From Thermoproteota archaeon (GTDB lineage Archaea; Korarchaeota; Korarchaeia; Korarchaeales; Korarchaeaceae), in assembly GCA_027491435.1 (NCBI GenBank), contig JAOZFG010000035.1, forward strand, positions 1 to 64,000: a stretch of 64,000 nucleotides of DNA, written 5' to 3'. Positions 21,578 through 30,663 of this stretch are shown piece after piece. Below the pieces are notes generated by a model. That model worked only from the letters and a program-made list of their open reading frames with translations. It was not told where the DNA came from and made no database searches. Both the position numbers and the translations under genes were made by a program. Numbering within the stretch: the stretch's first letter is position 1; each line of letters begins with the position of its first letter.

Positions 21578-22741
21578 TCACTTTGGGAAGTAGAGCCAGT
21601 ACTTCTGAACGTTCTGTATCCCTAGGATCCTCAGGGGCTTTCCCTTATATTTCAACTTGTTAGCGTATTTCTTGCCCCTAAAGGCCGTGTTCAGGGCGTT
21701 GAACATCACTAGGTCGGGCTTCATGTGCCTGGCGTGCTCTAAGCAGGCCATGTCGGCCAGGTTTATGTAGTCAGGGAACTGACCCCCGGCCGTGCTCAAC
21801 GCGGAGAAGGAGGCGAAGTCCACCAGATCGAGGTTAAACCCGGTTAGCTTCACCGGCCCAGGGTTGTGGGTCCTAGGCTTGTAGTAGACCACTTGAACCT
21901 CTTTGAAGAGGGGGTACTCCTCAAGCCTCTTCTCTATCCCTTCCCTGTGTTTCTCCCTGTCCTTTATCCTCAAGCTGGAGAAGTAACCGGCTATGAAGCT
22001 GCTTCCATTGAACTCGTCTCCATACTTCTCCAGGAGTAAGTACTCGCCTGGTTCCAGGAGGACGTTGGCCAGCATTGAGTCAGAGAGGAGGTCCAAGGCG
22101 AACCTCCTTATTCTCGGATCCAAAGAGTCCAAGAACCCTTGAAAGTCGTCCATGAACCTGTAAGCGATGAGGGAGGTGCTTATCCTCTTGACCAGTCCAG
22201 CAACTCCCTTCCCAAGCTGTCGAACTATCTTCATGACCTCATGAGAGGCCTCTGCTAGCTTCTTCCTGCTTCTGGGGAATATCGTGTAAGTTGGAGGGAA
22301 GTCCCCGTCCCTAACTATGACGTCGAAGTGTTCGCTGTGCCTCTTGATAACCTGTTTCATCATCAACACTTCCCTGTACTTCACCTCGAAAGAGGGCGTA
22401 TACTCCTCGTCCTCAAACGTGTTTCTGACAGGGAAGAAGCTGAATATAGGCCTTCTAGGGTCTGGGTAGAACACGGCTGCCAGAAGTATGAAGTTGGCCT
22501 TGTAGCCCCTCAGAGCTAGGGCTGACGTGAAGGTAGAGTCCACCGCTGAGACCCTGTAATTAGGAGGCCTCTCCCTAAGGTTGCCCTTGACAGACGAGAG
22601 CTTTGATTCTACCTCCTCGTAGGCCGGTTTAACCAGCTCCCAGGCCTCCAGGAACTTGTCTAGTATCCTCTCAGCGGACTTCTTGGCTAAAACGTAGATG
22701 TCTGGGAAGAGAACCTCGTCTTCAGGCTCAGGCAGTTCCAA
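21578..22741 (-). CDS. nurA: NurA 5'-3' nuclease
   Basis: A 387-residue NurA nuclease, partner of HerA in DNA end resection with Mre11-Rad50. The N-terminal active-site aspartate lies in YRVSAVDSTFTSALALRG, a second acidic motif is VIVRDGDFPPTYTIFP, and the C-terminal catalytic block is DFASFSALSTAGGQFPDYINLADMA (read as separate short motifs). It follows herA by four bases on the same strand. Mre11 and Rad50 genes are not in this window. Confidence 0.9.
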   Translation of the reverse strand: MELPEPEDEVLFPDIYVLAKKSAERILDKFLEAWELVKPAYEEVESKLSSVKGNLRERPPNYRVSAVDSTFTSALALRGYKANFILLAAVFYPDPRRPIFSFFPVRNTFEDEEYTPSFEVKYREVLMMKQVIKRHSEHFDVIVRDGDFPPTYTIFPRSRKKLAEASHEVMKIVRQLGKGVAGLVKRISTSLIAYRFMDDFQGFLDSLDPRIRRFALDLLSDSMLANVLLEPGEYLLLEKYGDEFNGSSFIAGYFSSLRIKDREKHREGIEKRLEEYPLFKEVQVVYYKPRTHNPGPVKLTGFNLDLVDFASFSALSTAGGQFPDYINLADMACLEHARHMKPDLVMFNALNTAFRGKKYANKLKYKGKPLRILGIQNVQKYWLYFPK

Positions 22742-22745
22742 GGGA

Positions 22746-24194
22746 TCACCCGTAGGTATGCATCAATATGGGCCTCCTGAACGGGGACATGAGCCCTGTC
22801 ACGTAGAAGTCGCCCTGTCCCAGTACGTCGACGTCCACGTTGCTCACGTTCACTATCTTAGCTATTTCCTCCATGTCCGTGGAGGCCTGAAGGGAGCTGA
22901 AGAACACGCTATTTATGTTGGCCCTTATGCTCGGGTCTATATCGTAGACCCACCTCTGGCTCACAAGCACGAGCCCTACCCCCCATTTCCTGCCCCTTCT
23001 GGCCACGTCTGCCAGTACTGAGGCGGTTATCTGGCCCTTGGAGGCGTAGATCTGTGCCTCGTCTATAACTATGGCCAAGTTAAGCCTGGACTTCCTCCTC
23101 TCAGCCACCCTCATTATCTTTGAGATGACCCCCTTCATTACGCCGAACCTTATGGGGAGGGGCTCATTGCTTATGTCTAGAACCGTGAGGTTCCAGTCGT
23201 TGAGGATTAAGTCCACTAGCTCGTCTATCAGGTAGGACCTGTCGTTAAACGAGCTGAGGGAGATCCCAGAGTTGAGGAACCTTATGAAGGCCTTGGCCTT
23301 GGTGTGAGGCCTCCTCTTCACCTGGTCCATCACGTAATCCAGGACCTGGAGGAACTTGAGGTCGTCCCAAGTGATGTCCCTGGGATCGACGTCCTGCTGG
23401 TAGGCCTCCAGCCCCTGCCTAGTCCCGAAGAGTGAAGCCAAGTCCAGCTTTCCACCAAGTCCGAGGGTTTTCAGGTAGTTGATAGCCTTATTAACGTCCC
23501 CTCCTCCCTTGAGGTAAGCGTCCAGCGCTATCTCCACGTCATCTGCTATGTCCATCTCGAAAACCTCGTCGGCTAGCACCCTAGCCATTGACTGGATGTC
23601 CGGCATTATCTCCTGATCCCTGATTACGTTCACGCTAAAGTGGGGCGCGTAGTCCTCACCGGTATGGTCAAAGGCCAGCACCTTCACCCCCTTCTCCACT
23701 AACTCCTTTATTAGAAGCCTAACTAGGTGCGACTTCCCCGAGCCTGTAGAGCCTATCACGGCCACGTGGTAAAATACGGCCTTGGGGTTGATCGGTATAT
23801 GCCAGTAGGAGGTAGGGTGATAGCCCACGTTCATCGGGTCGTCCACCAAGTTTAGGCCGTCTAGGTCGCCCTGCTCTACCAGGTAAACGGGGGCTCCTGT
23901 CTTTATCGCGGCTACAACCCTGGGCTGAAATCCGTCTTCAGTTAAAGTGCCGTAAAGCTCCACATTGGCGTTTAGGTACTCGAAGGCCCTCACAGCATTT
24001 GTGTCGGAGGGCATGAAGGGCGAGTAGGGGGACATGGTGGGGTTTGAGTATGAGGTAGACCTGACTACGCCTAGGAGGTTGTTCCCTACCCTGACTAAGT
24101 CGTTTATGGAAACCTCCGATTCGACCTCCTTATCGAGCCTGACGGTCACCCACTTGGTGGAGGTCCTGCCCACTGTTATGCCTATCTGCTTCAT
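22746..24194 (-). CDS. herA: HerA bipolar DNA helicase/translocase
   Basis: A 482-residue FtsK-HerA ATPase. The N-terminal HAS-barrel domain (about residues 1-100) precedes Walker A GSTGSGKSHL (about 148-157) and Walker B VIDEAQIYA. The sensor segment SQRWVYDIDPSIRANIN is typical. HerA forms a hexamer that pumps DNA into the NurA nuclease. A TATA-like CTTTTTATC lies about 28 bases before the ATG, so the herA-nurA mRNA is probably nearly leaderless. Confidence 0.93.
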   Translation of the reverse strand: MKQIGITVGRTSTKWVTVRLDKEVESEVSINDLVRVGNNLLGVVRSTSYSNPTMSPYSPFMPSDTNAVRAFEYLNANVELYGTLTEDGFQPRVVAAIKTGAPVYLVEQGDLDGLNLVDDPMNVGYHPTSYWHIPINPKAVFYHVAVIGSTGSGKSHLVRLLIKELVEKGVKVLAFDHTGEDYAPHFSVNVIRDQEIMPDIQSMARVLADEVFEMDIADDVEIALDAYLKGGGDVNKAINYLKTLGLGGKLDLASLFGTRQGLEAYQQDVDPRDITWDDLKFLQVLDYVMDQVKRRPHTKAKAFIRFLNSGISLSSFNDRSYLIDELVDLILNDWNLTVLDISNEPLPIRFGVMKGVISKIMRVAERRKSRLNLAIVIDEAQIYASKGQITASVLADVARRGRKWGVGLVLVSQRWVYDIDPSIRANINSVFFSSLQASTDMEEIAKIVNVSNVDVDVLGQGDFYVTGLMSPFRRPILMHTYG

Positions 24195-25872: not shown

Positions 25873-26243
25873 AAAGACACCTGAGCTAAGCAGTTAGCGA
25901 GACCTAATAAGTTAGCATCTGTCTAAAATGCATTCGACACTAATTTATCTTATGCATGACTTGCAGGGAGACTCTACAGATGAACCATGTATAATATATA
26001 TAGATAAACTAGCCAGTTCCCCCGGATAAGGGAGCGTTTTCATCTGATACCCTCCGCGACCCCGTCAACATGACTATAAGAAATTCGCTCACTAGAGGAA
26101 TGAAAAACCTGTTAGCTTTTTTATAAGGCAAGGCCTTGCAACTCCCCTCAAGAAGGAAACATCGGAGTGACAAAAAAGCCTTCTAGTGGTTAGAAGGCGT
26201 TGTAAAGCCACCTCTATTCTACATAATCTTCAGGATTAAATGT
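25873..26243. other. 371-base spacer between sulfur transporter and ComA-HTH genes
   Basis: No protein gene is seen. The spacer contains AT-rich promoter-like sequence for the transporter (about 25930-26010), a perfect 12-bp palindrome GCAAGGCCTTGC (26128-26139), and a hairpin with T6 tail on the minus strand (26172-26198, separate entry). The palindrome is a possible operator for the neighbouring winged-helix protein (inference). Confidence 0.45.
26172..26198 (-). terminator. Hairpin plus T6 tract after ComA-HTH gene
   Basis: On the minus strand GCCTTCTA, a five-base loop and TAGAAGGC make an 8-bp perfect stem followed at once by TTTTTT. It begins about 45 bases downstream of the ComA-HTH stop. 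The layout equals a bacterial intrinsic terminator. Archaea usually need only the T tract. Confidence 0.6.
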
Positions 26244-27215
26244 TCAAGTTATGAACCATATAGGCCTTTTATTAAACTCTTGTTTGTCAACTAGCCCTCT
26301 TTCCCTCAAAGACTTGAGGGCTTTGTATATGGTCCTAGGGGGCAGGCCCGTCTTTTCCCTTATGTCCGATAGAGTCATGGGGCCGAAGTGCTTCAAGACG
26401 TAGTAGACAAACTTCTCTGAAGGTGAGCCAGTTATTGCATGGACATTCCTCATAAGGAAGGTATCTCCCCTTAGACCCCTCCTTAAACTCTCCAGGGATA
26501 ACACATCTTCCATCTTAACGTTCCCCAGGTTGACGTTGGGCCCTATCCTCTTGATCAACTCTATCTGTTGTTTTACCAGAGGAGCTTCAAAGATTAGATC
26601 CTCTGGCGGCGCCACAGAGGTTATGGCCGCCAACCAGTCCTCCTTTATGTCCCCCTCGCCGTCGTAAATGCAGGAAGACACTCCGAATTCCCTGCCCTCT
26701 ATTACGACCTTCCACACGTGCTCCGAGCTGATGGCCCTGCTTATCTCCTCTAAGACAACTGGCTGAGTCAACCTCTTCATCGGGTTCTTCTTGCCAACTT
26801 CGAAGGTCACCTTAAATCCCATCTTTGCGGATAGCTCAGCTATTTCCAACCTCCTCTCTAAGCTTATGTCTACTATTCCAGCGCTAACCTCTATCACATC
26901 AATCCCTAGATTCCAGGCCTCCCTAAGCAGCTTTTCCAGCTTTCCTCTTAGTTCGAACATCTCCAGTACAGTTCCGCCTATCCCTACGTCGATATCGTAA
27001 TCGTGGTAGAGCTTTATCCTTTGAGACAACCTTTCCCTTTTCATTATGGTAGAGAGCCCCCAGCCTATCTTGACGTAGTCTACGTAATCGGCTATATCTT
27101 CTAAGATCAGGCACTCGTTAGGGGTCGATATCTTGTCTAGTACCATGGTTATGCCAGTTGACCTAGGCTTGACCGGCCTGCTGACTGGGCTTATCCCTTC
27201 AATGGGCAGCGACAT
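26244..27215 (-). CDS. Phosphosulfolactate synthase-like (ComA) domain fused to winged-helix DNA-binding domain
   Basis: A 323-residue two-domain protein. Residues 1-252 are ComA-like (PEP + sulfite to phosphosulfolactate, the first step of coenzyme M synthesis): VKIGWGLS, DVGIGGTVLE, VTFEVGKKNP, VIEGREFG, FEAP and the closing block SLESLRRGLRGDTF. Residues 265-323 are a winged helix (VLKHFGPMTLSDIREKTG then RTIYKALKSLRERGLVD). The usual SDG of ComA reads SAG here, so activity may be altered. A TATA-like ACTTTTTATTTG lies 25-30 bases before the ATG, suggesting a leaderless mRNA. The fusion implies a metabolite-sensing regulator of sulfur metabolism (inference). Confidence 0.85.
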   Translation of the reverse strand: MSLPIEGISPVSRPVKPRSTGITMVLDKISTPNECLILEDIADYVDYVKIGWGLSTIMKRERLSQRIKLYHDYDIDVGIGGTVLEMFELRGKLEKLLREAWNLGIDVIEVSAGIVDISLERRLEIAELSAKMGFKVTFEVGKKNPMKRLTQPVVLEEISRAISSEHVWKVVIEGREFGVSSCIYDGEGDIKEDWLAAITSVAPPEDLIFEAPLVKQQIELIKRIGPNVNLGNVKMEDVLSLESLRRGLRGDTFLMRNVHAITGSPSEKFVYYVLKHFGPMTLSDIREKTGLPPRTIYKALKSLRERGLVDKQEFNKRPIWFIT

Positions 27216-27287: not shown

Positions 27288-28145
27288 CTACTGCCCCTTC
27301 TTAGGAAGGGAAGCTGGGGCTAGCTCAGCCGGTTTATGGGGCTTTCCTCCAAAAGACGTCTTGAGTATAAGCCCTTTAAGCAGCTGTATGCCCTGAGCTG
27401 GATCTACGGCCCTGGGACATACGTCTGAACAAGCAGCCGCGAAGTGACATCTCCAGCACCCGTGGGCCGTGTCCACCACGACTACCCTCTCCTTGAACCC
27501 CTCATCCCTAGTGTCGACCATGTACCTGTAAGCCTGAGCTAGCGCCTGAGGCCCTAAGTACTCCGTGTCAGTGGCAGTCACCGGACAGGCCGCATAGCAG
27601 GCCCCGCACTTGATGCAGTCCACGAACTGTGAGTACTTATGATACTCGTCCGGGGATTGTAAGTACTGACCGGTTGGATTTTCCAGCTCTTCAACGTCCT
27701 TCCTTATTATCCAAGGCTTTATCTTCTTATGTTTCTCGAAGAAGGATGTGAAATCTGCCGCTAGATCCCTCTCAACGGGGAAGTTGTCCAGGGGCCTAAC
27801 CTCTATCACGTCGCTGTCTAACTCCATAACCCTAGTTTGGCACGCTAAAGCCGGCCTTCCATTTATCATCATAGCACATGATCCGCATAGCCCCATCCTA
27901 CAGGAGTACCTCATTGAAAGCGTTTGATCCAGTTCCCCCTTTATGTAAAGCAAGGCGTCCAAGACCGTCATTCCTTTGGAAACCTCCACCTCGTACTCAT
28001 CCCAGTGAGGGGCGTAGTCCTGCTTGGGGTTGTACCTATAAACCCTGAACTTTACCTTCTTCACGGGTTTCCAAAGCTCCTCAGCTGCCTTCTTGGCAGC
28101 CTCTAGCAGGTGAGGATCTATCTTATAGACTTCCTGATCAGACAT
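27288..28145 (-). CDS. sdhB: Succinate dehydrogenase/fumarate reductase iron-sulfur subunit
   Basis: A 285-residue iron-sulfur subunit. The [2Fe-2S] cysteines are 82, 87, 90 and 102 (YSCRMGLCGSC). A ferredoxin-type set is 177, 180, 183 and 187 (CIKCGACYAACP). A third set is 233, 239 and 243 (CHFAAACSDVCP), giving the usual [4Fe-4S] and [3Fe-4S] centres. It carries electrons from SdhA to quinone in the membrane. Gene order sdhA-C-D-B places it last, 12 bases after sdhD. Confidence 0.95.
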   Translation of the reverse strand: MSDQEVYKIDPHLLEAAKKAAEELWKPVKKVKFRVYRYNPKQDYAPHWDEYEVEVSKGMTVLDALLYIKGELDQTLSMRYSCRMGLCGSCAMMINGRPALACQTRVMELDSDVIEVRPLDNFPVERDLAADFTSFFEKHKKIKPWIIRKDVEELENPTGQYLQSPDEYHKYSQFVDCIKCGACYAACPVTATDTEYLGPQALAQAYRYMVDTRDEGFKERVVVVDTAHGCWRCHFAAACSDVCPRAVDPAQGIQLLKGLILKTSFGGKPHKPAELAPASLPKKGQ

Positions 28146-28157
28146 TCATACACCCCC

Positions 28158-28478
28158 TCATATAAGCCCAACAGAAAGCAAGATCGTCTGCATTCCAGCT
28201 AAGAAGGTTAAGATCCCTATTAGGAGCACTGCCCAGCCTATCAGCTTAGTCCAGCACTTGTTAGGGATTAGCTCTATTAACACCACCCTTACCCCGTTAA
28301 ATCCGTGGAACAGCACGGATGCTAGGAACACGGCCATGTTAGCCACATAAAAGTAGACATTCCCCTTTATCATTGGTCCTATGACTGGATCGTTGTTGGC
28401 GAACAAGTGTATAAGGCCAGTTATCACGATCAGCACGGCGGTAATGTAATGAATTAGCATTATTTTGGACTCCCTCAT
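28158..28478 (-). CDS. sdhD: Succinate dehydrogenase membrane anchor subunit SdhD
   Basis: A 106-residue protein with three hydrophobic helices. His residues in IHYITAV, GLIHLF and VLFHGFNGVRVV resemble heme- or quinone-site histidines of SdhC/D. Position between sdhC and sdhB and size define it. It has no strong similarity that I can name beyond the anchor fold. Confidence 0.85.
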   Translation of the reverse strand: MRESKIMLIHYITAVLIVITGLIHLFANNDPVIGPMIKGNVYFYVANMAVFLASVLFHGFNGVRVVLIELIPNKCWTKLIGWAVLLIGILTFLAGMQTILLSVGLI

Positions 28479-28482
28479 GACA

Positions 28483-28893
28483 TCACCCCACTACCACCAG
28501 GGCATAATAAGCCCAAATCAGCAGAGTCACGAAGAATAGCAGTAAGGCGAACATTAACAGGTATTTTTGAGGTCCGATTATGGATATTGGCCTTTGAGAG
28601 GGCTTCTTTACTGCCAGGGGCTTACCTACAGCTAGACCAAGCTCCACCAGTATTAGCCTGATTCCGTTGGCCACGTGGAAAGTGACCAAGATTCCCAATA
28701 TCACGTCCCCCCATGATCCAGGATGCCAGCCCACGTTGAAGAAGTGAGCTAGTAGGAAGGCCACTATGCCGAGCCCAGTTATCCTGTGAAGTATATACAG
28801 GGTCCTCTCCAGGGAGTACTCCTTCACCTTAAACCAGCCAGTGATTCCAGCCCTATTAAGGGCATAATACTCCTTATACTCCTGCTCCTCCAT
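28483..28893 (-). CDS. sdhC: Succinate dehydrogenase cytochrome b subunit SdhC
   Basis: A 136-residue membrane anchor with three helices. The N-terminal helix SLERTLYILHRITGLGIV is the classic SdhC signature (S-x-x-HRxTG), and His in FLLAHFF and TFHVANGIRLI are heme b candidates. It follows sdhA by 12 bases and precedes sdhD by four. Confidence 0.92.
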   Translation of the reverse strand: MEEQEYKEYYALNRAGITGWFKVKEYSLERTLYILHRITGLGIVAFLLAHFFNVGWHPGSWGDVILGILVTFHVANGIRLILVELGLAVGKPLAVKKPSQRPISIIGPQKYLLMFALLLFFVTLLIWAYYALVVVG

Positions 28894-28905
28894 AACGACA
28901 CCCTC

Positions 28906-30663
28906 CTAATACTTCCTCTCCTGAGGTGGCCACTTGGTTATCACCACGGGTAGGTAGTCAAACTTAGGCTCTCCATCGGCTCCCCTGTAGATCATCGTAT
29001 GCTTTAACCAGTTTTCATCATCTCTCTTTGGATAGTCAGTTCTAGTGTGGGCTCCCCTAGTCTCCGTCCTGTTAAGGGCTGCCATAGCTGTCACATAAGC
29101 TATTTCGAGCATTGCGTCAAGCTCCAACACGTGCACCAAGTTTATGTTGTACTCCCTACTCTTATCGGCCACATGACCTTCGCCGAACCTCTCCCTAAGT
29201 TCTTTAAGCTTCTTTATGGCCGTTTTCAAACCTTCCTCATTCCTAAAGACGTACACGTAGTCTCCCATTGTCCTTTGCATCTCAGTCCTTATGTGGTAGG
29301 GGTTTTCGCCAGTTGAGCCTTTAAGCATCCTGTCAAATATCCTCTTCTCCTCAGCCTCCACTCTTTCCATGGGAACGTCTTTTAGACTGGTGTTTAGGGC
29401 GTAGTCAGCGGCCTGTCTACCGGTTAGCATTCCGTAGACTAAGCAGTCAGAGCTGGAATTCGTTCCCAACCTATTAGCCCCGTGAAGGCTAACACAGGCC
29501 ACTTCTCCGGCGGCCCAGAGCCCTTTAGCTGGAGTTGCCCCGTACTTGTTCGTGTGTACCCCTCCCATGGAGTAGTGAGCTACGGGCCTCACCGGTATCG
29601 GCTCCTCTACAGGGTCCACTCCAGCAAACCTTATGGCTAGCTCCCTGATATGGGGTAGCCTCTCATCAATTCTGTCCTCCCCTAGATGTCTCAAGTCTAG
29701 TAACACGTAATCTAGCCCTCCAGGTCCCTTGAACCCCCTTCCTTCAAGGATCTCAGTCATCTCGGCCTTGGAAACTACGTCTCTGGGAGCTAGCTCCATC
29801 CTCTCTGGGGCGTACTTCTTCATGAACCTTTCTCCCTCTTTGTTTATCAGATAGCCGCCCTCTCCTCTAGCGGCCTCTGATATGAGGATTCCAGATGGGA
29901 CTAAACCTGTTGGGTGGAACTGGAAGAACTCCATATCTTTCAGAGGAAGTCCTGCCCTGTAGGCCATGGCCATGCCGTCTGCAGTCGAGGAGTGCGAGTA
30001 CGTGGTGAACGGGTAGAGCCTGCCGGCACCTCCAGTAGCCAAAATCCCGGCCTTGCCTTTGAACACGTAGAAGTTGCCTGTCTTTAACTCTATGGCGGTC
30101 AATCCCCTGAACTCGTTGTTTTCTAGCAAGATGGACGTCACGAAGTACTCGTGATAGAACTTTATGTTGTCGTACTTCAAGGCCGTGTCGTAGAGAGTCT
30201 GCATGGCGTATAACCCAGTTTTATCGGCGGCGAAACAGGCTCTAGGGAATGAGTGACCCCCAAATTTTCTCTGGGCTATCTTTCCGTCGGGCCTCCTGCT
30301 CCAGGGCATGCCCCAGTGCTCTAGCTGCATAACCTCCTGGGGGGCAAGTCTGACGAAGAGCTCTACGGCATCCTGGTCGGCCAACCACGCAGCTCCCTTA
30401 ACCGTATCCCATGCGTGTAAGTCGTAACTATCGCCCTCATCCAAGTAGAGGGCGGCGCCGGTGCCTCCTGCGTAGGCCACAGAGTGGGACCTCATGGCAT
30501 GTACCTTCGTTAGGACGGCTATCTCAAGCTTCCCCTTGCTCCTTCTAGCCGCTTCAATGGCTGCCCTTAGCCCCGCTAGACCGGAGCCCACAATAAGCAC
30601 ATCCGCACTAATAAGCTCTACCAAAGTTTTTCCCTCCCAGAGCTGGCTATGGTCACATGGCAT
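28906..30663 (-). CDS. sdhA: Succinate dehydrogenase/fumarate reductase flavoprotein subunit
   Basis: A 585-residue flavoprotein that oxidises succinate to fumarate. The Rossmann motif VLIVGSGLAGLRAAIEA is at about residues 23-39, the covalent FAD site region is MRSHSVAYAGGTGAA, and the active-site segments are FFQFHPTGLVPSG and RPVAHYSMGGVHTN. It is the first gene of sdhACDB. The operon is divergent from the Rieske/cytochrome b operon across about 410 bases. Direction (SDH or FRD) is not decided by sequence, but the neighbouring Rieske/cyt b fits an oxidative role. Confidence 0.95.
   Translation of the reverse strand: MPCDHSQLWEGKTLVELISADVLIVGSGLAGLRAAIEAARRSKGKLEIAVLTKVHAMRSHSVAYAGGTGAALYLDEGDSYDLHAWDTVKGAAWLADQDAVELFVRLAPQEVMQLEHWGMPWSRRPDGKIAQRKFGGHSFPRACFAADKTGLYAMQTLYDTALKYDNIKFYHEYFVTSILLENNEFRGLTAIELKTGNFYVFKGKAGILATGGAGRLYPFTTYSHSSTADGMAMAYRAGLPLKDMEFFQFHPTGLVPSGILISEAARGEGGYLINKEGERFMKKYAPERMELAPRDVVSKAEMTEILEGRGFKGPGGLDYVLLDLRHLGEDRIDERLPHIRELAIRFAGVDPVEEPIPVRPVAHYSMGGVHTNKYGATPAKGLWAAGEVACVSLHGANRLGTNSSSDCLVYGMLTGRQAADYALNTSLKDVPMERVEAEEKRIFDRMLKGSTGENPYHIRTEMQRTMGDYVYVFRNEEGLKTAIKKLKELRERFGEGHVADKSREYNINLVHVLELDAMLEIAYVTAMAALNRTETRGAHTRTDYPKRDDENWLKHTMIYRGADGEPKFDYLPVVITKWPPQERKY

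Follow-up and report, generated by a model that had tools for sequence, protein, structure and literature searches.

The 64,000-nucleotide stretch of Korarchaeia DNA analysed here (the window) contains a gene (26244-27215, minus strand) whose product joins the barrel of ComA to a winged helix, raising the question of whether the protein acts as an enzyme, as a regulator or as both. ComA, the (2R)-phospho-3-sulfolactate (PSL) synthase, joins sulfite to phosphoenolpyruvate (PEP). The open reading frame encodes 323 residues. Residues 13-251 (26463-27179, minus strand) match the Pfam ComA profile PF02679 at 242.6 bits (cut-off 25.2), and residues 266-315 match the TrmB winged-helix profile PF01978 at 37.3 bits (cut-off 25.6). 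An AlphaFold2 model built with 17 relatives (mean pLDDT 86) predicts a (β/α)8-type barrel followed by an H-H-H-E-E winged helix at residues 265-322 (26250-26423, minus strand), and a winged helix is also found at the end of a second predicted structure model. The best Foldseek match is M. jannaschii ComA (1QWG; TM 0.90 on the target, E 1.9e-21), and the ComA motif SLESLRRGLRGDTF is present as had been predicted. By profile and fold, the protein is thus a member of the ComA superfamily, with a tail of the winged-helix kind found in transcription regulators. It is not a TrmB family protein, as the match is confined to the winged helix and lies at the C-terminus. The original prediction of a ComA domain and a winged helix within one gene is therefore borne out, as is its claim that stand-alone ComA proteins lack such a tail, since none of those aligned has a winged helix.

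A search of archaeal genomes revealed that the fused architecture recurs in Korarchaeia, in another Thermoproteota lineage and in Nitrososphaeria. The full two-domain protein occurs in seven of 29 genomes of the host phylum (the host G000, G001, G007, G008, G016, G018 and G020). Among 398 Thermoproteota genomes, 12 have a ComA-family match, and most of these proteins are fused as well, with a length of about 330 residues; G398, from a different phylum to the host, represents a further lineage with a fused gene. One Nitrososphaeria order carries the fusion in 28 of 101 sampled genomes, with 36 full-length copies that belong mostly to ammonia oxidisers. AmoA was found in the tested f74 and f8 genomes, identifying these as ammonia oxidisers, and was not found in the deeper lineages G464, G471 and G467, nor in G398. 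Comparison by hhalign shows the winged-helix tails to be homologous between Korarchaeia and Nitrososphaeria (probability 99.1). The design proposed from the window alone is therefore recurrent, but it is not peculiar to the host organism and extends to ammonia-oxidising archaea.

The gene neighbourhood points to sulfur uptake. Immediately downstream, and in the same orientation, lies the gene for a YeeE/YedE-type sulfur transporter (Sulf_transp, PF04143; 24274-25872, minus strand), as originally noted; we propose it as a target. YeeE/YedE also lies directly behind the fused gene in G016 and G020, and is found two genes away in G398, with one small gene between. A 189-residue protein with no Pfam or NCBIfam match is encoded behind YeeE in G398 (L087 3375-3944) and G020 (L031 13457-14218), and hence occurs in two phyla. 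In G007, G008 and G018 the gene following the fusion encodes a Tat-exported split-Soret cytochrome c (closest PDB entry 1H21), and YeeE as the sole partner was rejected on this basis. A reading of the cytochrome gene as a sulfite oxidase, suggested by its Tat signal, was ruled out by Pfam and PDB searches. Across the 29 genomes of the host phylum, YeeE is present in 6/7 genomes with the fused gene versus 3/22 without (p=0.0011), and the split-Soret cytochrome in 5/7 versus 1/22 (p=0.0010), both values being uncorrected for relatedness.

Further features of these neighbourhoods were observed. YeeE and the cytochrome are both non-adjacent to the fused gene in G001, where a ChrB C-terminal domain protein (L027 8102-8632) is encoded nearby. 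The host genome contains two split-Soret cytochrome c genes, at G000:C31:2570-3520 (L064) and G000:C17:10823-11701 (L068); the latter is interrupted by two stop codons and has the appearance of a pseudogene. Within the window, the fused gene is preceded on its strand, at a distance of 72 bp, by a four-gene succinate dehydrogenase/fumarate reductase-like operon (27288-30663, minus strand), a linkage seen in none of the relatives. A HerA-like ATPase (22746-24194, minus strand) adjoins a 387-residue protein with no Pfam match (21578-22741, minus strand), which occupies the place expected of NurA.

In Nitrososphaeria, a gene for an SsuA-family sulfonate-binding protein lies within 5 kb of 23 of the 36 fused copies (about 1% expected), with ATPase and permease genes behind it. 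Twelve of these SsuA neighbours are divergent from the fused gene, the arrangement of most close pairs, and several of the remaining fused copies are on contigs without SsuA. In genus g130, second ComA-HTH paralogues (L091, L095) are found at a distance from SsuA and close to a gene for a CAP-domain protein.

An inverted repeat, GCA-N5-TGC, first noticed in the Nitrososphaeria divergent regions, was then tested in Korarchaeia. In the window, a candidate operator of this form (GCAAGTCATGC; 25954-25964, minus strand) precedes the YeeE promoter's TATA-like box (CTTATTAG; 25904-25911, minus strand) by 42 bp; the box aligns with CTTATAAA of six related YeeE promoters. When the seven host-genus YeeE promoters are aligned, both GCA-N5-TGC and a second element, AGACAGATGTCT, stand out as conserved against variable surrounding DNA. 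The second element is specific to YeeE and lies just upstream of TATA at the genus promoters (L054-L059); in the window, next to the fused gene, its copy is degenerate (AGACAGATGCTA; 25913-25924, minus strand). The repeat lies 40-42 bp upstream of TATA at the host-genus YeeE promoters, with a decayed copy in G003. G016 and G020, which are members of another genus, have the repeat at the same spacing in their YeeE promoters, as do G007 and G008 in their cytochrome promoters. Korarchaeia DNA totalling 232 kb contains 76 TATA-like sites. Ten of these, all at YeeE or linked-cytochrome promoters, have the repeat 40-42 bp upstream, and none of the others does. We scanned for inverted repeats with 3-bp arms and spacers of 0-12 bp, requiring presence at one spacing in at least six of the seven YeeE promoters, in G016 and in the cytochrome promoters. 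GCA-N5-TGC was the sole repeat common to the three promoter groups, a result equalled in 0 of 3000 shuffles. The operator had originally been sought in a 12-bp palindrome at 26128-26139. This palindrome does exist, but it is unconserved and was rejected as an operator because it is absent at all related promoters. None of the seven Korarchaeia fused genes has GCA-N5-TGC in the 300 bp preceding it, and autoregulation in Korarchaeia was rejected on this ground.

The match between repeat and regulator is imperfect, and this bears on the strongest of the alternatives, namely that the fused protein is a regulator with targets elsewhere and that some other, unlinked factor binds GCA-N5-TGC. G005 and G015 (98% complete) have no detectable fused gene, yet keep the repeat at YeeE, and G003 (86% complete) has no fused gene and the decayed copy. 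The site in these genomes may therefore belong to another factor, or may have outlived its regulator. Conversely, G018, G398, G464, G471 and G488 possess the regulator but have no copy of the repeat at the linked promoter. Nitrososphaeria likewise have the repeat at SsuA promoters in 7/20 genomes without the regulator; because the background there is high (21/78 intergenic runs), the motif does not count as strong evidence in that class. In genus g13 (L148, L153, L154), genomes that lack ComA-HTH conserve GCAAGCACTGC/GCAAGTACTGC upstream of SsuA, which suggests another regulator with a similar site. What argues against a different factor is that, in two Korarchaeia genera and at equal spacing, the site precedes whichever gene follows the fused gene, be it YeeE or the cytochrome. 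We consider an unlinked factor unlikely, though not negligible. Sites without a regulator and regulators without a site leave room for such a factor; the case for the fused protein as a regulator is not weakened by them.

Does the barrel remain an enzyme? In a tree of barrel domains, ten stand-alone ComA proteins form one clade (100/99) with every fused protein outside it. The tree was rooted at the midpoint, with the G398 branch weakly placed, and is consistent with a single fusion event. The original prediction saw a possible loss of catalysis in the SDG motif (residues 111-113). The motif does read SAG in the window (A112; 26880-26882, minus strand), with serine at this position in the six other Korarchaeia copies. 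As proof of inactivity this was rejected: the change is weak evidence because the B. subtilis PSL synthase (1U83) has N in place of the aspartate, and E or N occurs there in other fused proteins. The telling loss is instead that of the lysine on the active-site face that follows strand β7 (M. jannaschii K209). This residue is V214 in the window protein (26574-26576, minus strand) and is lost in 19/19 fused proteins examined, while being kept in 12/12 stand-alone ComA (ten aligned proteins plus 1QWG and 1U83). The scores against the NCBIfam arch_ComA equivalog TIGR03849 (cut-off 280 bits) follow the same division, with four stand-alone archaeal ComA at 293-353, the window protein at 234 and other fused proteins at 164-254.

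These data bear on the possibility that the protein is bifunctional, retaining PSL synthase activity while binding DNA in the manner of an enzyme-repressor. Such a protein would account for the retention, by all seven Korarchaeia copies, of 40 of the 60 positions conserved among stand-alone ComA, including E109, E139, K143, R175, E210, R245 and R249, and residual catalysis may persist given the many pocket residues kept. Against bifunctionality stand the loss of the lysine from every fused protein examined and the position of every fused protein scored below the curated enzyme cut-off. Furthermore, ComB (PF04029), which would use the product, was not found in the host genome (1.64 Mb, 99.46% complete), whose only ComA is the fused protein. 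Among the 29 genomes of the phylum, ComB occurs only in G026, which also has the sole stand-alone ComA; there the two genes share a coenzyme M-type comA-comB-TPP-enzyme cluster. Ammonia-oxidiser copies carry further replacements at W52, E139, R175, N232, R249 and D251, which also speak against retained synthase activity. A bifunctional protein is thus improbable.

The same replacements, progressive through the active site, would favour the view that the barrel of a DNA-binding regulator is a ligand-free dimerisation scaffold, with another signal such as redox at C182. This cysteine (26670-26672, minus strand) is invariant in the Korarchaeia and G398 copies and is Gly in 10/10 stand-alone ComA aligned. 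It is, however, not conserved in Nitrososphaeria. In addition, the charged pocket residues are strongly kept in Korarchaeia and in f104, where most of the pocket other than the lysine is intact, which suggests a ligand site under selection. We regard a pure scaffold as no better a candidate than bifunctionality. Chance, fusion artefact or misassembly is excluded, since the two-domain protein recurs across Korarchaeia (seven genomes) and Nitrososphaeria (dozens of copies).

The reading that best accounts for the data is that the fused protein is an enzyme-derived, one-component regulator that controls transcription of genes for the uptake of sulfur compounds, probably by activation, in response to a sulfite-, sulfonate- or PEP-like effector; we consider this likely. 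In support are the conserved fusion, its separation from the enzyme clade, the loss of an otherwise invariant lysine, the absence of ComB, the recurrent linkage to transporters of oxidised or organic sulfur and the inverted repeat shared between promoters at a constant distance from TATA. The core of the original prediction, an enzyme-derived regulator of sulfur uptake, thus holds, and the protein is very probably a sensor and switch for sulfur uptake that has gone undescribed. Under this model, the barrel, in which most pocket residues other than the lysine are kept, would no longer make PSL. It would instead bind sulfite, PEP, PSL or another sulfonate as a ligand related to what the enzyme once used or made, and this would alter the grip of a winged-helix dimer on GCA-N5-TGC. 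Archaeal activators typically have such a dimer site, a short inverted repeat, approximately four helical turns before TATA, unlike a repressor that blocks TATA. We propose that YeeE is most likely activated, because the site lies 40-42 bp upstream of TATA and not over it. In relatives, the gene for the split-Soret cytochrome c would also be a target, or, among Nitrososphaeria, the genes for sulfonate uptake of the SsuABC type. The complete scenario, an ancient conversion of ComA into a sulfite/sulfonate-sensing regulator that in Korarchaeia activates through GCA-N5-TGC approximately 41 bp upstream of TATA and that controls SsuABC in ammonia oxidisers, is more tentative, and we give it a little less than an even chance.

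If correct, this model would explain the presence of an annotated coenzyme M biosynthesis enzyme in archaea that apparently do not make coenzyme M, and many such annotated ComA genes would probably be regulators. We know of no regulator of organosulfur use in ammonia-oxidising archaea; the fused protein would provide a candidate sulfite/sulfonate sensor for these organisms and for Korarchaeia, together with a candidate operator and target genes. It would also offer a graded series for the conversion of an enzyme into a transcription factor, from the intact enzyme, via the near-intact pocket of Korarchaeia, to the rewired pocket of ammonia oxidisers.

Regulators derived from enzymes are already known from archaea. 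A search of the literature accessible without subscription found no description of a ComA-HTH protein or of a ComA-derived regulator. In comparison with ComA itself (PF02679, TIGR03849; 1QWG, 1U83), the barrel fold and most conserved pocket residues are the same. The fused protein differs in the added C-terminal winged helix, the missing lysine and the score below the TIGR03849 cut-off, and its gene lies outside a com gene cluster and without ComB. The winged helix matches the TrmB profile (PF01978) above cut-off, but in TrmB proteins the winged helix is N-terminal and sugar is bound by a C-terminal domain, whereas the fused protein carries its winged helix at the C-terminus and has the ComA barrel as putative sensor. 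The proposed control of sulfonate uptake would be a feature shared with the bacterial Cbl, SsuR and TauR, which control ssu/tau sulfonate uptake genes. These are LysR-, ROK- or GntR/MocR-type proteins and are unrelated to ComA, in contrast to the ComA-derived fused protein. The closest parallels in principle are the archaeal RbkR (riboflavin kinase plus HTH) and ThiR (ThiN plus HTH), in which an enzyme domain joined to an HTH senses a compound of its own pathway and controls genes for uptake or synthesis. The fused protein would follow the same principle with a different enzyme family, in a sulfonate/sulfite pathway, and with the HTH at the opposite end of the protein.
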